A stretch of DNA of 64,000 nt, from NCBI GenBank assembly GCA_025362795.1, contig JANYFE010000057.1:1-64000 (forward strand). Reading direction: 5' to 3'. The stretch is from Rhodobacterales bacterium. Its GTDB lineage: Bacteria > Pseudomonadota > Alphaproteobacteria > Rhodobacterales > Rhodobacteraceae. Shown here in pieces: positions 52,808 to 64,000 of the stretch. The position numbers were made by a program, and so were the translations under genes. The notes beneath the pieces are model-generated. The model saw only the letters and a program-made list of their open reading frames with translations, made no database searches and had not been told where the DNA came from. Within the stretch, counting starts at the first letter, position 1, and each line of letters begins with the position of its first letter.

Positions 52808-53089
52808 ATGATCCGTTCGGAACTGATCCAGAAGATTGCGGACGTCAATCCGCACCTGACACAGCGGCATGTGGAACGTATCGTCAATACGGTGTTCGAA
52901 GAGATCATCGCAGCGCTGGCCAAGGGCGACCGGGTCGAGTTGCGTGGCTTCGGGGCTTTTTCGGTAAAGGCGCGCGATGCCCGCACCGGGCGCAACCCGC
53001 GGACCGGCGAAGCCGTTCAGGTCGATGACAAGAAGGTGCCGTTCTTCAAGACTGGCAAACTGCTGCGGGACCGGCTGAACGGCAAGTAG
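52808..53089 (+). CDS. ihfB: Integration host factor subunit beta
   Basis: A 93-residue HU/IHF-family DNA-bending protein. [62 protein letters not shown] (beta-arm with Pro) and [15 protein letters not shown] match IhfB rather than HU. GGGGGGATATCTCGG is the ribosome site before ATG 52808. Partner of IhfA elsewhere. Follows rpsA, as in most proteobacteria. Confidence 0.95.
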
Positions 53090-53195
53090 TCACCCGAACG
53101 GCGCGTAATCCGCTGAGCGGCACACTGGCGGCTTGCAGTAAGGTGCGCCTGCCCTGATACTTGGGGCCGCATCCTTCTTGCCATAGGCGCATTCC

Positions 53196-53555
53196 ATGAC
53201 CCGAGCGTTTCGCTATCTGTTGCTGGCCTTGCTGACCATCGTGCTGTTGACGGTGGCTTTGGCCAATCGTGCCGTGATCGAGGTGCATCTGTTGCCCGAC
53301 GACCTGGCCGCCCTGCTGGGGGTCACAGCCATGGTGCAGGTGCCGATCTACCTGTTGCTGTTCGCGGGTATCGCGGTGGGTTTGCTGGTCGGGTTTGTCT
53401 GGGAATGGTTGCGCGAACACAAGCACCGCAAGGTCGCGCGGGTGCAGACCAGAGCGGTGGGCAAGCTGGAACGTGAACTGGCCACGATCAAGGACCAGAG
53501 CTCGCTGCCCGATGATGACGTGCTGGCACTGCTGGCCAGGCCCAAGGCCCGCTGA
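53196..53555 (+). CDS. LapA domain (DUF1049) membrane protein
   Basis: A 119-residue protein with two TM helices (about 5-23 and 44-70) and a cytoplasmic coiled-coil with [33 protein letters not shown], the LapA/YciS pattern. In E. coli LapA works with LapB in LPS-synthesis control. The stop is one base before the trpF GTG, so it is translated with trpF. LapA normally follows ihfB. Confidence 0.9.
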
Positions 53556-53556
53556 A

Positions 53557-54195
53557 GTGGCGGATGTCCGGGTCAAGATCTGCGGCCTGCGCACGGTGGG
53601 TGACGTGGTGGCGGTGGCGGCGGCGGGGGCGGGCTACATCGGTCTCAACTTTTTCCCCAAAAGCCCACGCTATGTGACCCTGCCCGAGGCGCGGCTGCTG
53701 GCGCTGGCCGCTCCGGTCGGGCTTGCCAAAGTGGCGTTGGTGGTGGATGGCGATGACGCGACGCTGGACGCCATAACCGAGGCGATGCCGCTGGACATGC
53801 TGCAGCTTCACGGCCACGAGACGCCCGCCCGTGTGGCCGAGGTGCGGGCGCGCTATGGCCTGCCGGTGATGAAGGTCATCGGTGTCGGGGACGCGGATGA
53901 CCTGGCCGCACTTTACGATTATTCGACGGTGGCGGATCAGATCATGATCGACGCCAAGCCGCCGAAAGACGCCGTGCTACCGGGCGGCAACGGGGTACCT
54001 TTTGACTGGCGGCTGGTGGCGCAGCGCCGCTGGCTGCGGCCGTGGATGCTGGCGGGCGGTCTGAACGCCGCCAATGTGGCAGAGGCGATCCGGCTGACCG
54101 GTGCGCGGCAGGTGGACGTGTCCTCCGGGGTGGAAATGGCGCCGGGGGTCAAGGATCCCGCGAAAATTGCGGCATTTGTGGCGGCAACGCGGTGA
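53557..54195 (+). CDS. trpF: Phosphoribosylanthranilate isomerase
   Basis: Tryptophan-pathway isomerase, a 212-residue TIM barrel with [12 protein letters not shown] at the start (catalytic Cys7-like position), [35 protein letters not shown] and the C-terminal phosphate-binding [14 protein letters not shown] and [18 protein letters not shown] 53557 gives the family N-terminus. Followed by a GNAT gene that overlaps its stop and then by trpB. Confidence 0.95.
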
Positions 54196-54632
54196 TCTTG
54201 CGCGACGCCACCCGCGCTGATGTACCTGCGATTGTGGCTTTGCTGGCGGATGATCCTTTGGGGCAGCGCCGCGAAGGCGCGGCGGAAAACGCCTATCTGA
54301 CCGCCTATGACGAGATCGCCGCCAATCCCATGTATCAGCTGATCGTGGGCGAGGTTGCGGGGCGAATTGTGGCCTGCGCCCAGTTGACCATGCTGGCCGG
54401 CCTGTCGCGCGGCGGCGCGCGGCGCGGTCTGATCGAGGCGGTGCGGGTTGCCGCTGACCTGCGATCGCAAGGCATTGGCGCGCGGCTGATGGTAGAGTGC
54501 GAGACACGGGCGCGGGCGGCAGGCTGTGACCTTCTGCAACTGACCACCGACAACAGCCGCATCCGGGCGCATGCGTTCTATGCGGGGCTGGGGTTTCAGG
54601 CCAGCCATCTGGGGATGAAGAAACCGCTTTGA
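54192..54632 (+). CDS. GNAT family N-acetyltransferase
   Basis: A 146-residue acetyl-CoA-dependent transferase. Motif A is [28 protein letters not shown] with the Q/RxxGxG/A signature, and the end is the [18 protein letters not shown] type. It starts at GTG 54192 with GTGA overlapping trpF's stop, so translationally coupled. Its acetyl acceptor is unknown. It separates trpF from trpB. Confidence 0.9.
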
Positions 54633-54658
54633 ACCGCTGGGCACCGGTTGAAAACAGG

Positions 54659-54677
54659 GCCTCCGGCGGGGATATTT
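54659..54677 (+). repeat. GCCTCCGGCGGGGATATTT motif, copy 2
   Basis: Identical over 19 bases to the copy at 42809-42827 (minus). Here it begins 27 bases after the GNAT stop, in sense orientation, ahead of the trpB promoter. Confidence 0.75.
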
Positions 54678-54764
54678 AGGGACAGATGATACCGCAAGGC
54701 AGGAAGCCCTTTCCCAGGGTCGTCAAGGCCGCTACATCGGGCAATTGCAGATCAGGAGGGCAAC

Positions 54765-55997
54765 ATGGCCAAGGACAACCCGAATTCATTCATGACCGGC
54801 CCGGACGAGCAGGGCCGCTTTGGCAAGTTCGGCGGGCGGTTCGTCAGTGAAACGCTGATGCCGCTGATCCTTGACCTGGAGGCGCGTTATGAATTCGCCA
54901 AGACCGACCCGACCTTCTGGGCCGAGATGGACGATCTGTGGAAGCACTATGTCGGACGTCCTTCGCCGCTGTATTACGCCGACCGGCTGACCAAGCATCT
55001 GGGCGGTGCCAAAATCTACATGAAGCGGGACGAACTGAACCACACTGGTGCGCACAAGATCAACAACGTGCTGGGGCAGATCATTCTGGCGCGGCGCATG
55101 GGCAAGACCCGGATCATCGCGGAAACCGGCGCAGGCCAGCATGGCGTGGCCACCGCGACTGTCTGCGCCAAGTTCGGGTTGAAATGCGTGGTCTACATGG
55201 GGGCGCATGATGTCGAACGCCAAGCCCCCAACGTGTTCCGCATGCGGCTTTTGGGGGCCGAGGTTATTCCGGTGACCTCCGGTCGTGGCACGCTGAAGGA
55301 CGCGATGAACGACGCCTTGCGCGACTGGGTAACCAATGTGCGCGACACGTTCTACTGCATCGGCACGGTCGCCGGCCCGCATCCCTATCCGGCTATGGTA
55401 CGCGATTTCCAAAGCATCATTGGCAAAGAGGTGCGCTGGCAACTGGCCGAACAGGAAGGCGAGGGGCGCCTGCCCGATACCGTTATCGCCGCGATTGGGG
55501 GCGGGTCGAACGCGATGGGCCTGTTCTATCCGTTCCTCGATGACCCATCGGTTGCGATTATCGGGGTGGAGGCCGGCGGCAAAGGCGTTGACGACCGCAT
55601 GCAGCATTGCGCCTCGCTGACCGGAGGTCGCCCGGGCGTGCTGCACGGCAACCGCACCTATCTGCTGCAAGACCCGGATGGCCAGATCCTCGAGGGCTTC
55701 TCGATCAGTGCCGGGCTGGACTATCCCGGCATCGGGCCAGAGCATTCCTGGCTGCACGACATGGGCCGCGCCCAATATGTCAGCATCACCGACGCCGAGG
55801 CGCTGGAGGCGTTTCAGCTGTCGTGCCAGCTGGAAGGCATCATCCCGGCACTGGAACCCAGTCATGCGCTGGCCCATGTGATGAAAATTGCGCCCAAATT
55901 GCCGGCCGGGCATATCATCGTGATGAATATGTGCGGGCGCGGGGACAAGGATATCTTCACCGTCGCCAAGCATCTGGGATTCAACATGAAAATCTAG
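54765..55997 (+). CDS. trpB: Tryptophan synthase beta chain
   Basis: Condenses indole and serine. The 410-residue PLP enzyme has Lys98 ([13 protein letters not shown]) as the Schiff base, [31 protein letters not shown], and PLP phosphate binding [26 protein letters not shown] is a strong ribosome site. trpA is not in the window. It has its own 100-base upstream region plus a terminator downstream. Confidence 0.97.
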
Positions 55998-56025: not shown

Positions 56026-56057
56026 GGCCCTGTAAACGAAGGTTTACGGGGCCTTTT
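56026..56057 (+). terminator. Intrinsic terminator of trpB
   Basis: A 12-bp stem with one G-T wobble (56026-56037 with 56042-56053), GAAG loop and TTTT; begins 29 bases after the trpB stop. Confidence 0.88.
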
Positions 56058-56189: not shown

Positions 56190-56840
56190 ATGGTACCTTG
56201 TGATCGAAACACTTTGATCTTGCGGGCAGGCCTGTCGCTGGCGGCGGCGTTGATGCTGTCGGGCGCGGCGGTTGCGGGGCAGGCCAGCGGCGCACGCGGC
56301 CCGGACGTGGCCACGGCCTTTGGCGACGGATGGGTGCTGGTCGATGAGGTGGTGGTGCAGACCACGCATGAAATCAACCCGGATGCCTCGGGCGGTGACG
56401 AAGGCATCGCTGTGGGCGAACCGGACCCGACAGGCGGATCTGGTGACGATCCGGCAACAGGCGACGGCAGCGACGGTTCTGGCGATCAGGCGACAGGTGA
56501 TGGCTCGGGCGACGGTACCGACGTGTCGGGTGACGGTTCGGACGACGGCACCGATGTGACGGGTGACGGTTCGGGCGACGTTACAGACAGCGGCGATGGC
56601 ATTGATGTCATCTACACGATGGACGGCGGGTCCAATTGTGGCGGGTGCGAATATCAAAATGCGGTTCCGGTGTTTCAGATGCAATCGGGCGGCATTGCGC
56701 ACAATGCTCCGGCACAGATCGTGGTACACAGCGATCACGAGGTCGCCCGGCAGACGGTGGCGCATGGGTCGGCAGCCTGCACGGCCCGGCATCCCGGCCT
56801 GCCGTGGATGTGCGAATGGCAAAGCGGTGCAAGCCAATAA
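56190..56840 (+). CDS. Secreted protein with Asp/Gly/Ser/Thr-rich repeat tract
   Basis: A 216-residue exported protein: signal peptide about 1-30 (LSGAAVAG), a short N-terminal segment with GWVLVDEVVVQTT, then a low-complexity block (about 67-137) of DGSGD, GDGTDV, GDGSDD units, and a C-terminal part with four Cys (NCGGCEY ... AACTARHPGLPWMC). No catalytic family is recognised. Repeats of GDG type may bind calcium. It opens the PepSY-like/HTH locus. Acidic tracts recur in two of the other proteins here. Confidence 0.7.
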   Translation: MVPCDRNTLILRAGLSLAAALMLSGAAVAGQASGARGPDVATAFGDGWVLVDEVVVQTTHEINPDASGGDEGIAVGEPDPTGGSGDDPATGDGSDGSGDQATGDGSGDGTDVSGDGSDDGTDVTGDGSGDVTDSGDGIDVIYTMDGGSNCGGCEYQNAVPVFQMQSGGIAHNAPAQIVVHSDHEVARQTVAHGSAACTARHPGLPWMCEWQSGASQ

Positions 56841-56856
56841 AGATTCGTGATAGGCT

Positions 56857-56896
56857 GTGGCACCGGCCGGCACCGGCCGGCACTGGCCGGTGCCAC
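56857..56896 (+). repeat. GC-rich tandem/inverted repeat before the first PepSY-like gene
   Basis: Three tandem 10-mers (CACCGGCCGG twice, then CACTGGCCGG) at 56861-56890 lie inside a perfect 12-bp inverted repeat (56857-56868 and 56885-56896). It starts 17 bases after the acidic protein's stop and may end that transcript or separate two transcription units. No U-tract is seen. Confidence 0.7.
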
Positions 56897-56953
56897 GTTT
56901 CCAGGACCAACCATCCCGGCGCGGGTGGGGGGCGCTGGCGAAAAGGATGCGCT

Positions 56954-57424
56954 ATGAAACATCGGTTGCTGGCAGTTGTGATACTGACAGGGCTATGCGC
57001 CCCGGCAGCGGCCCGCACCGTCGAGGAGCGGTTGATCGCGGGTCTCAAGGATCAGGGCTACGCCATCGTCGAGGATGGCTATACCTTTCTGGGTCGCCTG
57101 CGCATCGTTGCCGAAAATGACACTTATCACCGCGAGATCGTGGTCAACCCCGGAACCGGCGAGGTTCTGCGCGATTATACGGTACTGCTGAGCGACCTGT
57201 TGCCGCCGAAATCGCAACCGTCAGAGCCGCATGCCTCTGCCCCCGCCTTGGCTGCCCTGGTGCCGCCGCCAACCGGCACCGTCGCTGCCGCAGCGGCCGC
57301 CGCCGCAACCGTCGGCATGAGCATTGCGGCCATGGCAGCCGGTACCGGCCTGCAAGGCAGCGCCAGTCAGTTCGACATGCTCTTGGCCACCCCGATCCTG
57401 CCGCTAGGGCCGGTCGCTCCGTGA
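56954..57424 (+). CDS. PepSY-like exported protein, module 1
   Basis: A 156-residue protein with a signal peptide (about 1-20, CAPAAA). The PepSY-like part is ERLIAGLKDQGYAIVEDGYTFLGRLRIVAENDTYHREIVVNPGTGEVLRDY, with the typical GY...LGR...REI...P.TGE.L.D pattern. A Pro/Ala-rich tail with a hydrophobic Ala helix follows. PepSY domains are believed to modulate proteases or bind peptide-like ligands outside the membrane. The TGA overlaps the GTG of the next gene, a two-TM LuxR-HTH protein. Confidence 0.78.
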   Translation: MKHRLLAVVILTGLCAPAAARTVEERLIAGLKDQGYAIVEDGYTFLGRLRIVAENDTYHREIVVNPGTGEVLRDYTVLLSDLLPPKSQPSEPHASAPALAALVPPPTGTVAAAAAAAATVGMSIAAMAAGTGLQGSASQFDMLLATPILPLGPVAP

Positions 57425-57939
57425 CGCGGGCCGGCGCTTATCTGCTGCTCCTTCTGGTGCAGGCGGTCTGCGCGCTGTTCTTTGTCGCGGACATATTGTT
57501 GTCCGTCGTCGGCATCTACCCGGTGCCCCTAGCCTGGACCACGCGCGAGATGATGGAGGTTGGCGCACTGATCGGCCTGTTGCTGGGGCTGATCTTTGGC
57601 GGGCTGCTGGTCTGGCGCGCCTTTGGCGATCTGCGCCGGGCCGAGGCGCGGCTGGAACGGGCCAGCGCCGCCTTCATCGACCTGCTCAACGCCCGGTTCG
57701 ATGAATGGGGCCTGACCACGGCGGAACGCGATGTGGCCCTGTTCGCGATCAAAGGGCTGAGTGTGCAGGACATCGCCCGGCTGCGCGAAACCAGCGAAGG
57801 CACGGTCAAGGCGCAGACCGCCGCCATCTACCGCAAGGCCGATGTGACGGGCCGCCCCCAGCTTCTGAGCCTGTTCATCGAGGATCTGATGGGGGCCGAG
57901 CGGCGTGATTCGGCGGCACTGTCCGACAAAGTCGCCTGA
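57421..57939 (+). CDS. Two-TM protein with C-terminal LuxR-type HTH, copy 1
   Basis: A 172-residue protein: TM helices at about 6-30 and 45-67 with a short periplasmic loop, a charged coiled linker (AFGDLRRAEARLERASAAF), and a LuxR/GerE HTH LTTAERDVALFAIKGLSVQDIARLRETSEGTVKAQTAAIYRKADV. It is a membrane-anchored one-component regulator. Start GTG 57421 overlaps the PepSY gene's TGA. It aligns closely with the 174-residue protein at 59337 (shared ERDVALFAIKG and SEGTVKAQT). Direct DNA binding from the membrane is plausible but unproved. Confidence 0.82.
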   Translation: MTRAGAYLLLLLVQAVCALFFVADILLSVVGIYPVPLAWTTREMMEVGALIGLLLGLIFGGLLVWRAFGDLRRAEARLERASAAFIDLLNARFDEWGLTTAERDVALFAIKGLSVQDIARLRETSEGTVKAQTAAIYRKADVTGRPQLLSLFIEDLMGAERRDSAALSDKVA

Positions 57940-58019
57940 CATCCCCGGCAACGGCGCGGTTTTTCCAAACCGGATCAGACCTTTGACGCCGCCACACCGC
58001 CGCCTACCGTGACTTTGGT

Positions 58020-58037
58020 CCTAAACTGCGGTTTAGG
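58020..58037 (+). promoter_or_regulatory. CCTAAAC-TGCG-GTTTAGG palindrome upstream of the second PepSY-like gene
   Basis: A perfect 7-bp inverted repeat with four-base spacer, 131 bases before ATG 58168 and 81 bases after the HTH gene. It is a candidate operator for an internal promoter. Confidence 0.5.
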
Positions 58038-58167
58038 GCGGTAGAGCTGGTGGGTCGTCGGGCCCAAATAAACCGTGGGTCAATTCCACAAGGGTCCGCC
58101 GCGGGGCAGGGTGAGTGTATCGAAACCCGGCAGATGCCACCCGGCACAGCCAATAAAGGACCACACC

Positions 58168-58674
58168 ATGAAACGACTGATGCTCCTTTCGACCGCCATG
58201 ATCTTGACTGCCAGTTTTGCGATGGCCGCCGTGACCGCCAGCGACCTTGTCACCGCCTATCAGGCGCAAGGTTATACCACGATCGAGGTTGCGACCGGAC
58301 TGACTCAGATCAAGGTCGAGGCCATTCAGGGCCGCGCCAAGGTCGAGGTGATCTATGACGCCACCACCGGGGCGATCCTGTCGCAGGAAAACAGCCGCGC
58401 CAAGAAAAGCGATGCCGGGCAAGGCGTGCAACTGACCACCGTGGCGACGGACTTTCTGAACGATAACGGCAACGGCAACGGGCAGGATGGCAACGGTGAC
58501 GGCACGGGTGATGGTGCGGGCGGGAATGATGATGGCGCGGGCCATGACGCCGGAGATGACAAGGGCGGCGACAAAGGCAATGAGCACGACGGCGAACAGC
58601 ATGACGGTTCGGGCCACGGCGGCAATGGCAGCCACGATGGTGCGGGCGACGACAACTCGGGCCAGCACGATTGA
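58168..58674 (+). CDS. PepSY-like exported protein with acidic Gly/Asp tail, module 2a
   Basis: A 168-residue exported protein: signal peptide about 1-20 (SFAMAA), PepSY-like stretch DLVTAYQAQGYTTIEVATGLTQIKVEAIQGRAKVEVIYDATTGAILSQE, then from about residue 97 a tail built of DGNGDG, GDDKGGDKG and His-containing units (HDGEQHDGSGHGG). The tail's Asp/Gly/His composition suggests metal binding. AAAGGA precedes the ATG. Its family has no HTH partner directly adjacent, but another PepSY-like gene follows. Confidence 0.75.
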   Translation: MKRLMLLSTAMILTASFAMAAVTASDLVTAYQAQGYTTIEVATGLTQIKVEAIQGRAKVEVIYDATTGAILSQENSRAKKSDAGQGVQLTTVATDFLNDNGNGNGQDGNGDGTGDGAGGNDDGAGHDAGDDKGGDKGNEHDGEQHDGSGHGGNGSHDGAGDDNSGQHD

Positions 58675-58798
58675 GCCCATCTGACCAAGGGGTGCGCAGG
58701 GATCACTTTGCGCACCCCGGTCCAGGCCCGGCCTTGCCGATGGCCCTGCGATGCAAGATACTGCGACCCGCAGCACCGGGCCAATCCGGGGGGGTAAG

Positions 58799-59296
58799 AT
58801 GAAGCGCCGTCATTTTCTGGGACAGACCGCCGCAAGCCTGTTTCTGGCCGGTCTTGTCTTGACTGGTCCGGTCAGCGCCGCGACCTTCGCGGAAGGCGTG
58901 ATCGCACAGCTGACCCGTCAGGGCTTTGCCGCCATCGCGTCCGAGACGACCTGGCTTGGCCGGGTCCGCATCACGGCTGAACGCAATGGCGGCACGCGGG
59001 AGATCGTTCTGAATCCGCGCACGGGCGAAATTCTGCGTGATATCTGGACTCCGGCTGACGACACTGCGGCGCAGGTGCCGATTGTCGATGACATCGGGCC
59101 TGCCAGCAGCGGCGGCTCCGATGACGGCGGCAGTTCTGGCGGCGGCGATGATGGCGGCGGCAGCGACAGCGGCTCCGGCAATGGTGACTCAGGCAGCGGC
59201 TCTGGCAGCGGAGGGTCGGGCAGCGGAGGTTCTGGCAGCGGGTCGGACGGCCATGATGATGGCGGCGGCGACCATGGCGGCAAGGGCAAGGGTTGA
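58799..59296 (+). CDS. PepSY-like protein with Tat-like signal and Gly/Ser/Asp tail, module 2b
   Basis: A 165-residue protein starting MKRRHFLGQTAASLFLAG, whose RRHFLG resembles a Tat signal; cleavage about residue 27 (PVSA). The PepSY-like domain is GVIAQLTRQGFAAIASETTWLGRVRITAERNGGTREIVLNPRTGEILRD, closest to module 1. The tail (about 100-165) is nearly all Gly/Ser/Asp. GGGGGGGTAAG is a strong ribosome site. The HTH paralog follows after 40 bases. Confidence 0.78.
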   Translation: MKRRHFLGQTAASLFLAGLVLTGPVSAATFAEGVIAQLTRQGFAAIASETTWLGRVRITAERNGGTREIVLNPRTGEILRDIWTPADDTAAQVPIVDDIGPASSGGSDDGGSSGGGDDGGGSDSGSGNGDSGSGSGSGGSGSGGSGSGSDGHDDGGGDHGGKGKG

Positions 59297-59336
59297 TGGC
59301 CGGGCATACCCAGCCCCGGTCGGGGGCCATGCCATA

Positions 59337-59861
59337 ATGGGCAGACAGGCCATCGTCGCGGCGCTGTTTCTGGCGCAGGCCCTGTTTGCCATCATCTTCG
59401 TGTCCGACGTGTTTTCGTCGATCTTCGGCTTTGAATCCGCCCCGCTCAGCTGGGAGGCGCGCGAGCTTCTGGAAATCTTTGCGGCTGTCGGCCTTGTCAT
59501 CGGTGCGGTTCTGGGCGGCTTTGCGATGCGGCGTGCGGTGCTGGACCGCAACAAGGCGCAAGAACGCCTGCGCCGCGCGTCAGGTGCGTTTCTGGACCTG
59601 CTCGAGGAACGCTTTGCCGAATGGGGCCTGACCCCCGCCGAACGTGATGTGGCCTTGTTCGCCATCAAGGGCATGTCGACGGCAGAGATTGCCATCCTGC
59701 GCACAACATCAGAAGGCACGGTCAAGGCCCAGACCAACGCGATCTACCGCAAGGCCGGGGTGTCGGGCCGCTCGCAACTGCTCAGCCTGTTCATCGACGA
59801 CCTGATGCGCGACGACGGCAACCTGCGTCCGGCAGCGCAACCGCCGCTTGGCCTGGCCTGA
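59337..59861 (+). CDS. Two-TM protein with C-terminal LuxR-type HTH, copy 2
   Basis: A 174-residue paralog of the protein at 57421. TM helices at about 4-27 and 42-63, a helical linker (LDRNKAQERLRRASGAFLDLLEERF), and HTH LTPAERDVALFAIKGMSTAEIAILRTTSEGTVKAQTNAIYRKAGVSGRSQLLSLFIDDLM. ATG 59337 gives a start with an immediate TM helix. The pair shares about the whole HTH domain. It probably receives input from the neighbouring PepSY-like protein. Confidence 0.82.
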   Translation: MGRQAIVAALFLAQALFAIIFVSDVFSSIFGFESAPLSWEARELLEIFAAVGLVIGAVLGGFAMRRAVLDRNKAQERLRRASGAFLDLLEERFAEWGLTPAERDVALFAIKGMSTAEIAILRTTSEGTVKAQTNAIYRKAGVSGRSQLLSLFIDDLMRDDGNLRPAAQPPLGLA

Positions 59862-59955: not shown

Positions 59956-60330
59956 TCAGGCTTCGCCCCGGTCGTAAAGTTGCAACACCGCCAGCGGCAC
60001 CACGTCCAGCGTGCGCCGATGCGTGCCTTTCAGGTTCACTTCCGGGGCCGCGCCCTCGTCATGCGCCTGCAAGAATCGGCTGGCGCACAGACACCAGCGG
60101 TCGCCCGGCTTCAGCCCGGCAAAGCCGAACTCGGGGCGCGGGGTCGACAGGTCATTGCCCAGATATTTCGACAACGCCAGAAACTCTGCCGTCATCACTG
60201 CACAGACCGTGTGCTGACCGCGATCCTCCGGCCCGGTATCGCAGCAGCCATTGCGATAAAACCCGGTGACAGGCTTGGCTGAACAGGGCTGCAAGACGCC
60301 CCCCAGAACATTGACCGATGCTTCTTTCAT
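59956..60330 (-). CDS. DUF2237 family protein
   Basis: A 124-residue cytoplasmic protein with the DUF2237 signature: NVLGGVLQPCSAKPVTGFYRNGCCDTGPEDRGQHTVCAVMTAEFLALSKYLGNDLSTPRPEFGFAGLKPGDRWCLCASRF. Conserved Cys (GCCDTGPED, WCLCASR) may bind a metal. Function is unknown; the family is widespread in bacteria. Convergent with the HTH gene and next to the FAD monooxygenase gene. Confidence 0.92.
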   Translation of the reverse strand: MKEASVNVLGGVLQPCSAKPVTGFYRNGCCDTGPEDRGQHTVCAVMTAEFLALSKYLGNDLSTPRPEFGFAGLKPGDRWCLCASRFLQAHDEGAAPEVNLKGTHRRTLDVVPLAVLQLYDRGEA

Positions 60331-60371
60331 CCGGCCAGTCTAGCGCAGCCGGGCCACCCGGCCAAGGGCCG

Positions 60372-61550
60372 TCACGGAAACCGGGTGCTGGCGAGCGGTG
60401 GCAGCAGATTGCCCGACACCAGCGCCGTCAGAATGCGGTTCACCGGCGGCATTCGCCCGACCGGGGCCAGCACCCAGTCGCGCAGCACTGGCAGCAGGCG
60501 GCTGTCGGACTGGTACATCGGTGTAAAGCTGGCGGACAGTGCCTGATAAAACCGCCGGTGCCAGCGCCGCATCCGGGCATAGCGCGGCAAGGCATCCGCC
60601 AGCGGGCAGGCTGCCAGCGCCAGGGTCAGGGCCATCGCATCCAGCAGCGCCATGTTCGCGCCTTGCCCCAACTGCGGGCTGGCGCGATAGGCGGCATCGC
60701 CCAGAAACACCAGCCCCGGCTGATAGACCCGTGCCAGACTGCCATGGGCATAGCGTGCCGGCGTCAGATCCGCCTTGCCACGCAACTGATCCAGAAATGG
60801 CACCATCGCAGGCCAGAACCGACCCACGTTATCGCGCCAGGCGTCGAACCTGACCTCTGGCCACGCCTCCAGCCCGGCCAGCGGCAGCGACCAGAACAGC
60901 GCGGCGCGTGGTGTGGGATCATCGGGCAACCGGCCAATCGGCAGCACGCCCGCCATCTTTTCCGCACGGAAATAGCGCTGGCTCAATTGATCCTGCGGCA
61001 GGACCGCGCCTTCGGGCCAGGGAACCGAGGCCCAGACGGCCCCAAATGGCAAGGCCCGCGCGGCCATCGGCGACAGCAGCGACCCGGTGCCAGAACCGTC
61101 GATCACCAGATCAAACGGCCCCAGCCGGTCGCCGCCGCCATCGCGCACCAGCCAGCGCACCCCGCCCTCCTGCGGGGCCGCCAGCACCGCAGCCCCGGTC
61201 GCCAGCGTGACCCCTGCGGCCATCGCCGCAGACCACAGCACATGAAACAGACTGGCCCGGTGCATCGCCAGACCGGGCGCACCGGCCCGGTAATCCACCG
61301 TCAGAATCTCGCGGCGTCCGGCTTGACCCCGCATCTGGCGGATCGGTGCCGCCAATGCCCGCGCCGCATCGTCCGCGCCAATCGCCTCCAGCACCGCCAG
61401 CCCGACCGGCTGCACCACCAGCCCTGACCCCAGCGGGCGCGGGGTCGCGAACCGCTCGGCTATCGTCACCGCATGGCCGTGCCGCGCCAGCAGCGCCGCC
61501 GCCGCCAGCCCGCCAATTCCCGCCCCGACGATGCCAATCCGCAGTGTCAT
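60372..61550 (-). CDS. FAD-dependent aromatic monooxygenase (UbiH/PHBH-like)
   Basis: A 392-residue flavoprotein monooxygenase. GIVGAGIGGLAAAALLARHGHAVTIAERF is the FAD motif; FDLVIDGSGTGS replaces the usual DG motif; GLVFLGDAAYRASPQLGQGANMALLDAMAL is the GD motif. Group A flavin monooxygenases hydroxylate phenolic or quinone substrates. No neighbouring catabolic genes indicate the substrate. Divergent from the DUF2339 gene and 40 bases upstream of the DUF2237 gene on the same strand. Confidence 0.9.
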   Translation of the reverse strand: MTLRIGIVGAGIGGLAAAALLARHGHAVTIAERFATPRPLGSGLVVQPVGLAVLEAIGADDAARALAAPIRQMRGQAGRREILTVDYRAGAPGLAMHRASLFHVLWSAAMAAGVTLATGAAVLAAPQEGGVRWLVRDGGGDRLGPFDLVIDGSGTGSLLSPMAARALPFGAVWASVPWPEGAVLPQDQLSQRYFRAEKMAGVLPIGRLPDDPTPRAALFWSLPLAGLEAWPEVRFDAWRDNVGRFWPAMVPFLDQLRGKADLTPARYAHGSLARVYQPGLVFLGDAAYRASPQLGQGANMALLDAMALTLALAACPLADALPRYARMRRWHRRFYQALSASFTPMYQSDSRLLPVLRDWVLAPVGRMPPVNRILTALVSGNLLPPLASTRFP

Positions 61551-61685
61551 CCGGCCAATTCACACGCAATCCGCGGCCAGGGCAAGGCCCGCGCAACCGT
61601 CCGGAATTCCATACTTTGACAATCCGCACCGCGCGGATAGGGTCGCCACAGCGCCCGCAGAGGCGCATCAAAGGGATCGTGGGTC

Positions 61686-64000
61686 ATGGATGAAGTCTTG
61701 CTGGGAATTCTGGCATTCTGCGTGGTGTTGGCCATTCCGGTCTGCATTATCGTCTTGCTGGTCGGCCAGTCCCGGCTGAAGGCCCGCGTCACGACGCTGG
61801 AAGCCCGCATTGCGGCCGCAGGCAGCATCCCCGCCGACGCCATCGCCACCGCCATCGCCACCACGGCGATTGCCGTTCCGCCGCCCTTGCCGTGGGACCA
61901 GCCGGTCATGGCGGGCGCGCCCGTTGTGCCCGTTGTGCCAGAACCCGGCGCCGAAGCCGCCATGGTTGCAGGTGCGGTCGAAACCCTGTCCGACACACCC
62001 CCGCCCGCCGACCAGAACCGCCCCATCGTCATCCGCCGCGACCGTGCCGCCGCCTTGGGTGGCTGGCTCACGCGCAACTGGGTCTATGTCGTCTCTGCGG
62101 CTTCGCTGGCCTTGGCGGGCGTGTTCCTTGTGCAATACGGCATCCAGAACGGCATGCTGCCGCCGTGGCTGCGCGTCGCCGCTGCTTATGGCTTTGGCGC
62201 AGCGCTGATCGGTGCCGGTGACTGGATGCGCCGCAAGCTGGGCGATGGCGAGGACAGTGACACCGCCTATCTGCCCTCGGTCTTTGCCGGCGCAGGACTT
62301 GTCAGTCTGTTTGCCGCCACCGTCGCGGCGCGACAGCTGTACGACCTGATCGGCCCCAACCTGTCCTTTGCCCTGCATGTTCTGACCGCCCTGCTGGCGA
62401 TTGGCCTCGGCTGGTTCTATGGCCCGTTGTTGATTGCCGTCGGCCTGATTGGTGCCGCCGCCGCGCCATTTCTTGTGGGCTCCGACAGTGGCGCCACGCC
62501 GCTGCTTTATGGCTATTACGGGTTGATCGCAGCACTTGGTCTTGCCGTGGATGCGGTCCGCCGCTGGGCCTGGGTGTCGGTTCTGGCGCTGGTGCTGGCC
62601 ATCGGCTGCGGCTGGGCGATGCTGCAATTCGGCGCGGGGCAGGCGGGCTGGCTGGCCTTCAATCTGGTGATTGTCGCGCTGTCGGTCGGTTTGCCTGTCC
62701 TGCGTCCGATCCCCAACCACGACGGCCCCAGCGTTCTGGTCGCGGCTTTGACCCAGGGCAAGCCGGACTGGCCCAGCTTTCCCGTGCGCCTCGTGGCTGG
62801 CACCACGATTGTCGCCACGCTGGCCTTGCTGACCTTGCAAGGGGCGACACCGATGGTCGGCCTGCTGGCCTGTGGTGCGCTGACGCTGCTCGCGCTCGGA
62901 CTCTTGATCTGGGCCGAAAAGGCCGATGGTCTGGCCGACCTCGCCCTGTTGCCCGCCCTCGCTTTGCCACTGCGGCTGATCCTAGATGCCACGCAATACT
63001 GGCCGTTGTCGCAAAGCATCCTCAGTCAGTCCATCGCCCTGCGCCCTCCCGAAACGGCCGCGCCGCAGGGCGTGACCTGGCTCGTCATCCTTGCCGCCCT
63101 GATCACTGCCGCCTTCGCGTGGCGCGCCCTGAAAGGCGGCCCGTTGTCTTTGCTGCACGGGCTGGCCGCCGTTCTGGTAGCCCCGGTCACGGTTGCGGTG
63201 CTGGAGCTGACCTGGTTCCCCGCCACCGTGATTGGTGCCTATGCCTGGGCGCTGCACCCGATGATCCTTGCCGCCGCAATGGTGGCGCTGGCCACCCGCT
63301 TTGCCCGGACCGATGGCACCGATCACCGCCGCATGGCCTATGCCACGCTGTCGGCGCTGTCGCTGATGGCGCTGTCGCTGTTCTTGCTGACCTCCGCCAC
63401 CGCCCTGACGCTGGCGCTGGCGGTGCTGGTCCTTGCCGCCGCCTGGCTCGACAGGCGCTATGACCTGCGCGAGATGGGCCTGTTCATCCAGATCGCCACC
63501 GCCGTCCTCAGCTACCGCCTGCTGGCCGACCCCGGTCTGGACTGGGCGATGCAGGCCCCGATCCTGGCCGTTCTCGCCGCGTTCCTTGGCGTCATCGGGG
63601 CCGAGGTTGCGGCCTGGCACCTGCTGCGCGATCTGGGCCGCAGCATGACCCGGGGTGTGCTGGAAAGCGCGGCACTGGCCCTTGCCGCCATTCTCGCCAA
63701 TGTCCTGCTGTCGCGCTGGCTGGTGCCGATTGCCAGCTTCTCGGGCTATTCGGCGCTGGATCTCAACTACGCCACCGCGCTCAACGCAATGCCGTGGCTG
63801 GTCCTGATGCTGACGCAGCTTTACCGCGTCAAATTTGGCGGCCCACTGAAACGCCTGCGCCAGATCATCGCGGTCCTCGCCGGGTTCCTCGCCTTTTCCG
63901 GCCTGCTCACGGCCGCGGTCTTTCTCAACCCGTTGCTCGCCGCCTACCCCGATGGCATCGGCGCGCTGGTCCAGGGCCCGGTGATCCTTGACACGCTCGC
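61686..64000 (+). CDS. DUF2339 family multi-TM membrane protein, N-terminal part
   Basis: The frame opens at ATG 61686 and runs off the window after 771 codons. Residues 5-25 form a TM helix, followed by a coiled stretch (RLKARVTTLEARIAA) and a Pro/Ala-rich linker, then NWVYVVSAASLALAGVFLVQYGIQNGML, and many further TM helices with short loops. This matches DUF2339 (PF10101), large polytopic inner-membrane proteins of unknown function. It lacks signature catalytic residues. It may relate to cell-envelope processes. Confidence 0.85.
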   Translation, partial: MDEVLLGILAFCVVLAIPVCIIVLLVGQSRLKARVTTLEARIAAAGSIPADAIATAIATTAIAVPPPLPWDQPVMAGAPVVPVVPEPGAEAAMVAGAVETLSDTPPPADQNRPIVIRRDRAAALGGWLTRNWVYVVSAASLALAGVFLVQYGIQNGMLPPWLRVAAAYGFGAALIGAGDWMRRKLGDGEDSDTAYLPSVFAGAGLVSLFAATVAARQLYDLIGPNLSFALHVLTALLAIGLGWFYGPLLIAVGLIGAAAAPFLVGSDSGATPLLYGYYGLIAALGLAVDAVRRWAWVSVLALVLAIGCGWAMLQFGAGQAGWLAFNLVIVALSVGLPVLRPIPNHDGPSVLVAALTQGKPDWPSFPVRLVAGTTIVATLALLTLQGATPMVGLLACGALTLLALGLLIWAEKADGLADLALLPALALPLRLILDATQYWPLSQSILSQSIALRPPETAAPQGVTWLVILAALITAAFAWRALKGGPLSLLHGLAAVLVAPVTVAVLELTWFPATVIGAYAWALHPMILAAAMVALATRFARTDGTDHRRMAYATLSALSLMALSLFLLTSATALTLALAVLVLAAAWLDRRYDLREMGLFIQIATAVLSYRLLADPGLDWAMQAPILAVLAAFLGVIGAEVAAWHLLRDLGRSMTRGVLESAALALAAILANVLLSRWLVPIASFSGYSALDLNYATALNAMPWLVLMLTQLYRVKFGGPLKRLRQIIAVLAGFLAFSGLLTAAVFLNPLLAAYPDGIGALVQGPVILDTL

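Follow-up and report, generated by a model that had tools for sequence, protein, structure and literature searches.

The stretch of DNA analysed here (the window) comprises the first 64,000 nucleotides of contig JANYFE010000057.1 from a Rhodobacterales bacterium (assembly GCA_025362795.1), and the system in question is a run of six genes on its plus strand, at 56190-59861, that encode, in this order: an acidic exported protein, a PepSY-like protein (PepSY-1), a membrane protein with a helix-turn-helix (HTH) domain (HTH-1), two further PepSY-like proteins (PepSY-2a and PepSY-2b) and a second such membrane protein (HTH-2). These are two tandem copies of a three-gene unit of the Rhodobacteraceae: an acidic exported protein, a PepSY protein of class b (PepSY-b) and a LuxR/GerE-type HTH regulator with two transmembrane (TM) helices. 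An earlier reading of the letters alone (the original prediction) had placed all six genes on one strand, with a GTGA overlap between the first PepSY and HTH genes; both features are there, the overlap at 57421-57424.

The first module opens with a gene (56190..56840, +) for an exported acidic protein that is rich in Gly and Asp and contains CGGC as well as Cys residues at its C-terminus, followed by PepSY-1 (56954..57424, +), a class b protein whose tail is Ala/Pro-rich and not acidic, and by HTH-1 (57421..57939, +), whose GTG start lies inside the overlap with the PepSY-1 stop. In the second module the place of gene 1 is taken by PepSY-2a (58168..58674, +), a PepSY domain with an Asp/Gly/His-rich tail, and is followed by the partner PepSY, PepSY-2b (58799..59296, +), with an RRxFL-like start and a disordered Gly/Ser/Asp tail, and by HTH-2 (59337..59861, +), like HTH-1 a two-TM protein with a C-terminal LuxR/GerE HTH. 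We scanned 75 related loci, with bit scores from an HTH profile made in this analysis, and found an exported acidic open reading frame (ORF) in the gene-1 place of 10 of the 12 other module-1-type loci (L007, L008, L010, L012-L015, L017, L018 and L021; none in L011 and L016), nine of which align weakly with that of the window (24-43% identity). Because the acidic gene recurs in this way, it is counted as gene 1 of module 1. The predicted repetition of PepSY and HTH genes thus stands, but the repeated unit has a third gene, the acidic gene in module 1 and PepSY-2a in module 2.

The two-TM regulators and the PepSY proteins

HTH-1 and HTH-2 align throughout, as had been predicted (89 of 148 positions identical), and both match GerE (PF00196) above the Pfam cut-off (27.7 and 27.5 bits versus 23.5); with two hydrophobic segments predicted in 78 of the 82 HTH proteins longer than 150 residues, the description of a LuxR-type HTH on two TM helices was borne out. 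An AlphaFold2 model built with a 73-row alignment (mean predicted local distance difference test score, pLDDT, of 87) has a helix at residues 2-30, a turn at 31-38, a helix at 39-96 and the GerE helices at 100-162, so that TM2 and the linker form one continuous helix and the soluble HTH stands after TM2. The HTH domain is favoured as cytoplasmic because the stretch after TM2 is positively charged (+2 and +5 in the two window proteins) and the loop negatively (-1 and -3). The best Foldseek matches of the model were LuxR/NarL-type domains (StyR, GerE, VpsT, NarL and VraR) with probability 1.00, yet with E-values of 0.01-0.16 and none at E ≤ 0.001, and HMMER aligns the TVK segment to VraR and StyR, GerE appearing among its matches with no alignment given. 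Retention of the LuxR/GerE fold and of the TVK recognition segment is therefore supported, and the HTH domains lacking DNA-binding residues that had been named as evidence against the original prediction were not encountered here, the recognition segment being intact. A comparison with PHROGs brought up just one kind of match, a weak one to a sigma factor, located in the HTH region.

A quorum-sensing LuxR receptor was considered and rejected, since Pfam finds no autoinducer-binding domain at E ≤ 1 and the N-terminal half consists of two TM helices. Membership of the LIC13292 family of transcriptional regulators (NCBIfam NF047608), with which the proteins are collinear over the C-terminal half of the 166-position model, was rejected at 59.2 and 58.4 bits for the two window HTHs versus a cut-off of 200. 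Regulators of the ToxR/CadC type combine an OmpR-type winged HTH at the N-terminus with a single TM helix and a folded domain in the periplasm; the window proteins resemble them as one-component regulators anchored in the inner membrane, but their C-terminal GerE HTH, two TM segments and 8-residue turn, which leaves almost no periplasmic part, rule out membership. Among the relatives, an HTH-1 homologue of locus L012 (5001-5516) is broken by an in-frame stop, and one HTH gene (genome G132, L157:1384-1716) is without most of the TM part, its locus having the palindrome described below between a PepSY-a and an acidic exported gene.

The domains of PepSY-1 and PepSY-2b are as close as had been claimed (35/69 identical), PepSY-2a being more distant (17/67 identical to PepSY-2b). 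None of the PepSY-like proteins of the window reached the Pfam cut-off for PepSY (PF03413/PF13670; best 14.7 bits versus 24), and PepSY-1 had no Pfam PepSY match whatever; PepSY_2 was matched at E ≤ 0.01 by 10 of 47 and 7 of 25 of their relatives. In profile comparisons hhalign gave 97.9% for class b and 98.1% for class a against a 14-row alignment (A5) of PepSY_2 proteins from paralogous operons, a match to which the signal peptide contributes, and 99.1% between the two classes; three of four A5 members score 42.9-52.1 bits in Pfam (cut-off 24.3) and that of L099 has no match. Judged from these profiles, the PepSY-like family of the window is homologous to PepSY_2 proteins that pass the cut-off, so that the predicted PepSY-like identity is upheld through relatives and not by the Pfam scores of the window proteins themselves. 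In the model of PepSY-2b a domain of one helix plus four strands (pLDDT about 97) is joined to a disordered tail; Foldseek matched this model to nothing in the PDB at E ≤ 0.001. Tails with at least 25% Asp plus Glu, which we call acidic, were found in 32/38 proteins of class a, in 35/64 of class b outside the module-1 clade and in 0/12 of that clade; in the window itself the tails of 2a (22%) and 2b (17%) stay under this line. The start of PepSY-2b (58799-58830) and those of its relatives were compared by a simple pattern for Tat-like N-termini (RR-x-hydrophobic-hydrophobic), which occurs in 18 of 79 PepSY-b and in 0 of 38 PepSY-a proteins.

Recurrence, duplication and distant relatives of the module

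Profile searches of a family sample of 149 genomes recovered 134 HTH matches in 86 genomes and 94 PepSY matches in 63. PepSY-b lies directly upstream, on the same strand, in 59 of the 63 cases with an HTH of at least 200 bits, and 91 of the 94 PepSY matches are within 3 kb of a family HTH (3 are without one); HTH homologues never adjacent to PepSY genes, which had been named as speaking against the original prediction, are thus not what is seen. In the related-locus scan 74 of the 76 HTHs of at least 200 bits have a PepSY ORF directly upstream, the two exceptions being L009, where the contig begins, and L052, and PepSY-b stays beside the HTH even where gene 1 switches type. These observations support the pairing of PepSY with the two-TM HTH as real and recurrent. 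Across 76 cognate pairs, the distances of the PepSY and HTH proteins are correlated at r = 0.54 (at most 0.137 on permutation), a value that shared ancestry by itself inflates. The core module also has a fixed genomic home: of the 67 loci with a called HTH gene, 54 have a homologue of trpB (in the window the PALP-matching gene, which we take to be trpB) upstream and in the same orientation, and 37 have a DUF2237 homologue, which in 31 of them is the gene immediately downstream, on the opposite strand. Another way to hold two modules is seen in L119/L135, where two PepSY-HTH pairs are convergent in one genome.

The search of genomes for repeated gene pairs that had been suggested thus found the pairing to recur, and both HTH types are present in 9 of the 76 loci, the window included. 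In the HTH tree the HTH-1-type proteins (13 rows) and the HTH-2-type proteins (9 rows) form separate clades, and the 12 PepSY-1-type rows form one clade of the PepSY tree (SH-like approximate likelihood ratio test, SH-aLRT, 96), 11 of whose loci carry HTH-1-clade regulators and one, L017, a sister; the two trees are congruent in module 1, but only partially so in module 2. When HTH-1 and HTH-2 were constrained to one clade, the approximately unbiased test gave p-AU 0.656, and the data are therefore consistent with a single, old duplication in place. A recent duplication was rejected on account of the old, separate clades of the copies. Of the predicted duplication in place, then, the tandem copies stand and a single event is compatible with them, the duplication being old and the unit one of three genes. 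The tandem pair occurs in the window's genome only among the 149 (the second pair listed is a single HTH in two fragments), and L074 has two modules whose HTHs are placed elsewhere in the tree. Elsewhere in the window's genome (3.84 Mb, 108 contigs) there are more HTH relatives, namely on contigs C53, C35, C34 and, weakly, C11.

More distant relatives have other partners. Around weaker HTH relatives we inspected 20 regions, of which 18 have a called HTH; upstream of 13 of these is a PepSY-like gene, identified by profile in 10 and by eye in L099, L109 and L111; a cytochrome b561-like gene stands between PepSY and HTH in 10 of the 13 (confirmed by Pfam in L099, L101 and L102, otherwise recognised by sequence). 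Operons with PepSY, cytochrome b561 and HTH were noted in L099, L101, L102, L104, L106-L109, L111, L114, L121, L124 and L126, sometimes with a lytic transglycosylase gene at their 3' side. Among 289 genomes of the class, the HTH was found in 16, of which 12 are outside the family; PepSY stands upstream in 6 of the 13 such HTHs whose gene was called, and another 4 have a cytochrome b or c gene nearby and no PepSY (Pfam confirms cytochrome b561 in L125 and diheme cytochrome c in L127; L130 and L138 by eye). In L127 and L130, from other alphaproteobacterial families, the HTH is near cytochrome c genes, diheme cytochrome c being assigned by Pfam in L127 only. In 15 regions upstream of cytochrome b561-group operons, motifs searched for de novo did not exceed shuffled sequence (top count 5; shuffle maxima 4-6).

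A palindrome upstream of the module

Counting of spaced word pairs in 78 upstream regions revealed a palindrome, GCATAAACYNNRGTTTATGC, that lies some 130-200 nt 5' of the first gene in many loci and occurs in up to 21 of the 78 regions, against about 0 expected from shuffles. The window has it twice: as CTGTAAACGAAGGTTTACGG (56030..56049), the candidate operator of module 1, which lies 3' of trpB, scores 14.2 bits and is similarly placed in other module-1 loci, and as TCCTAAACTGCGGTTTAGGG (58019..58038), the predicted operator of module 2, which starts 149 nt 5' of PepSY-2a. A position weight matrix (PWM) made from 17 sites gave 65 matches of at least 14 bits within 743,274 bp, spread over 57 of the 76 loci; 64 of these matches are within 2.5 kb upstream of a family HTH and the remaining one, in L010, precedes a PepSY gene at a contig end. 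Shuffled controls gave 0 matches at this threshold in one copy and 2 in three more (2.23 Mb), and at 11 bits or more 69 of 72 matches were upstream of an HTH, though the upstream zones make up 191,770 of 741,754 positions.

A fixed pattern in whole genomes is the stronger test, because the PWM derives from the same loci. The strict pattern MTAAACYNNRGTTTAK had 40 sites in 37 of the 149 genomes: 31 lie within 3 kb upstream of a family HTH and 2 at contig-end modules beside trpB (one with a PepSY-a-like gene visible), so that 33 of 40 are at these modules. Genomes with the HTH carry strict sites more often than those without it (34/86 versus 3/63; p = 6e-7), and TAAACN4GTTTA, with 0.49 occurrences expected in the window's own genome, is found there at 3 places, of which two lie in this module. 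The palindrome is thus near-exclusive to the module. In nine loci (the window, L008-L012, L014, L016 and L021) the module-2 palindrome is 3' of the HTH-1 gene and not of trpB, and the site therefore travels with the module. An alignment of 22 upstream regions shows a recurrent second half-site about 21 nt downstream and a TAAnCC...GGCCAAT element, represented in the window by TAAACCGTGGGTCAAT (58069..58084, +), which may be a further site or a promoter element; no direction of regulation could be read from this alignment. In a near paralogue group, two loci, L076 and L077, have the palindrome 144-145 nt 5' of the PepSY gene. From its sequence and placement, the palindrome is likely the operator of the membrane HTH, governing the HTH's own operon. 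The site of a global regulator was considered and dropped, the strict sites numbering about one per genome. The palindrome as operator, with its link to the module, is new here.

Proposed signalling and its alternatives

The best reading, by analogy, is that the module would work like DbfQ/DbfS of V. cholerae minus the kinase and the receiver. According to the report on that system (PMC12714742), DbfQ is a small periplasmic PepSY protein that controls a histidine kinase, PepSY/two-component neighbourhoods are enriched more than 60-fold, positive autoregulation of such an operon is suggested, and of two PepSY genes in P. aeruginosa only the nearer is predicted to bind the receptor. As in DbfQ-DbfS-DbfR, a small exported PepSY protein is here encoded upstream of a membrane signalling protein; unlike there, where a histidine kinase and a response regulator follow, one two-TM LuxR-HTH protein replaces both. 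A DbfQRS-like PepSY-two-component module proper is rejected, as Pfam finds no kinase or receiver among the eight neighbouring genes.

We lean, if only slightly, towards each module being a self-regulating, kinase-free transmembrane signalling operon in which PepSY-b contacts the regulator, and a role of PepSY-b as detachable periplasmic sensor or modulator of the membrane-tethered two-TM regulator is the best supported part. The product of gene 1 would be an exported acidic protein, in many cases a PepSY domain that carries an Asp-rich tail; gene 2 would export PepSY-b, and gene 3 would provide the regulator, consisting of two TM helices with a tiny periplasmic turn, the long helix of TM2 and linker, and the cytoplasmic LuxR-type HTH. 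PepSY-b would touch the membrane hairpin from the periplasm and so alter, via the long helix, the pairing of two regulators, and the pair would bind the palindrome 5' of gene 1 and set expression of the operon. In this scheme the gene order, the shared inheritance of PepSY-b and HTH, the fold class of the HTH and the near-exclusivity of the palindrome are observed, and the contact, the signal, the dimerisation and the sign of regulation are what we infer. The acidity of the tails makes sensing of cations or of cationic stress a first guess, with multivalent cations or such stress as their probable stimulus. Rather more tentatively, we suggest a widespread alphaproteobacterial class of split one-component systems, in which a minimal two-TM LuxR-type regulator would be combined with a separate, exchangeable PepSY sensor, with a cation branch (acidic tails) and a redox branch (cytochrome b561/diheme cytochrome c), each with a dedicated operator that controls its own operon.

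Several observations weigh against the proposed signalling scheme. The predicted periplasmic turn of about 8 residues offers little surface for contact with PepSY, and acidic tails are inessential to the pairing, since the module-1 clade has none. PepSY-b is upstream of just 12 of the 71 HTHs below 200 bits and no PepSY is found in 5 of the 18 inspected paralogue loci; gene linkage and matching trees can also arise by vertical inheritance without contact. The PepSY-2b rows split, unlike their HTHs, into five together (support 92), L012/L014/L021 elsewhere and L015 loose, in a quick tree of few columns, and the search for the HTH tree was non-exhaustive, because the constrained tree scored above the free one. 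As to the palindrome, the training and scoring loci of the PWM overlap, 19 of the 76 loci have no match of at least 14 bits (six of them hold less than 1 kb before the HTH), 7 of the 40 strict sites are at no recognisable module (in three of these stretches the gene caller called no gene), the backwards control pattern gave 22 matches in the same 149 genomes, their locations not being listed, and at 13 bits or more no palindrome was found in the cytochrome b561 group or the other distant-relative loci, except the window's own.

The tiny exposed turn is also why the first alternative stands, namely that the PepSY and acidic proteins are outputs and that the two-TM hairpin itself senses the membrane (lipid packing, voltage or quinone state), the regulator switching on exported proteins that protect the envelope or bind metals. 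The operon itself is the sole recurrent target of the strict palindrome, and the paralogous operons with cytochrome b561 between PepSY and HTH fit this as well; according to PMC11845868 and PMC8963506, binding of Ln, Ca, U or Fe by PepSY proteins has been reported, and LanP and UipA can bind metals themselves. The latter two resemble the window proteins in that their PepSY domains are exported or attached to the membrane, and there carry metal sites of negative charge, but they have two PepSY domains in these accounts, where the window proteins have one PepSY domain and a disordered tail, for which metal binding is hypothetical. Against this alternative, PepSY-b is kept beside the HTH when gene 1 changes type, and PepSY and HTH of module 1 are clearly co-inherited; we regard it as possible, yet doubtful.

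Improbable, in our estimate, is that the palindrome is an RNA hairpin (a terminator or attenuator of trpB) or the site of an unrelated factor and implies no autoregulation. TTTT follows 8 of the 65 PWM matches, which may be terminators, four of them module-1 sites (56030 in the window, L012, L014 and L018); the window's module-1 palindrome also belongs to a terminator-like hairpin that is followed by TTTT and is thus ambiguous between operator and terminator. However, no TTTT is found within 18 nt in the other 57, the module-2 site of nine loci is not 3' of trpB, the letters themselves are conserved with further elements downstream, and the count of strict sites, near one per genome, speaks against a global factor.

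PepSY was originally proposed as a regulator of peptidases. This background and the position of the soluble HTH after TM2 would suit a regulator that PepSY-b shields from an intramembrane protease until a signal removes PepSY-b and the HTH domain is cut free, but with no protease among the eight neighbours tested with Pfam, none recognised in the neighbourhood clusters (one could be encoded elsewhere) and TM2 and linker predicted as one continuous helix, this is the least probable of the explanations.

If the signalling operon proposed above is real, a signal can pass the inner membrane without a kinase, carried by one small helix-hairpin regulator together with a loose periplasmic partner of the PepSY type, the PepSY-receptor principle of DbfQ extends to one-component regulators, and unannotated acidic exported proteins of the Rhodobacteraceae gain a function; the specific DNA site makes the idea directly testable. 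The literature searched, which covered few subscription journals, contained no account of a two-TM LuxR regulator paired with PepSY. The SHP operons (PMC2909971) combine cytochrome b, a diheme cytochrome c, a periplasmic accessory protein and an Orf1-SK1-RR kinase/receiver; some paralogues of the HTH family are likewise near cytochrome b/diheme cytochrome c genes, but have the two-TM HTH in place of kinase and receiver, and the window module is without cytochrome.

The eight neighbours of the module in the window (52808-55997 and 59956-63998) match, in Pfam: HU-like, LapA-like (slightly below the cut-off), PRA isomerase, acetyltransferase, PALP, DUF2237, FAD-binding and DUF2339. Between the acidic gene and PepSY-1 (56858-56897) we noticed, by reading, a GC-rich block of CCGGC, repeated and inverted, which is possibly a hairpin that tunes relative expression.

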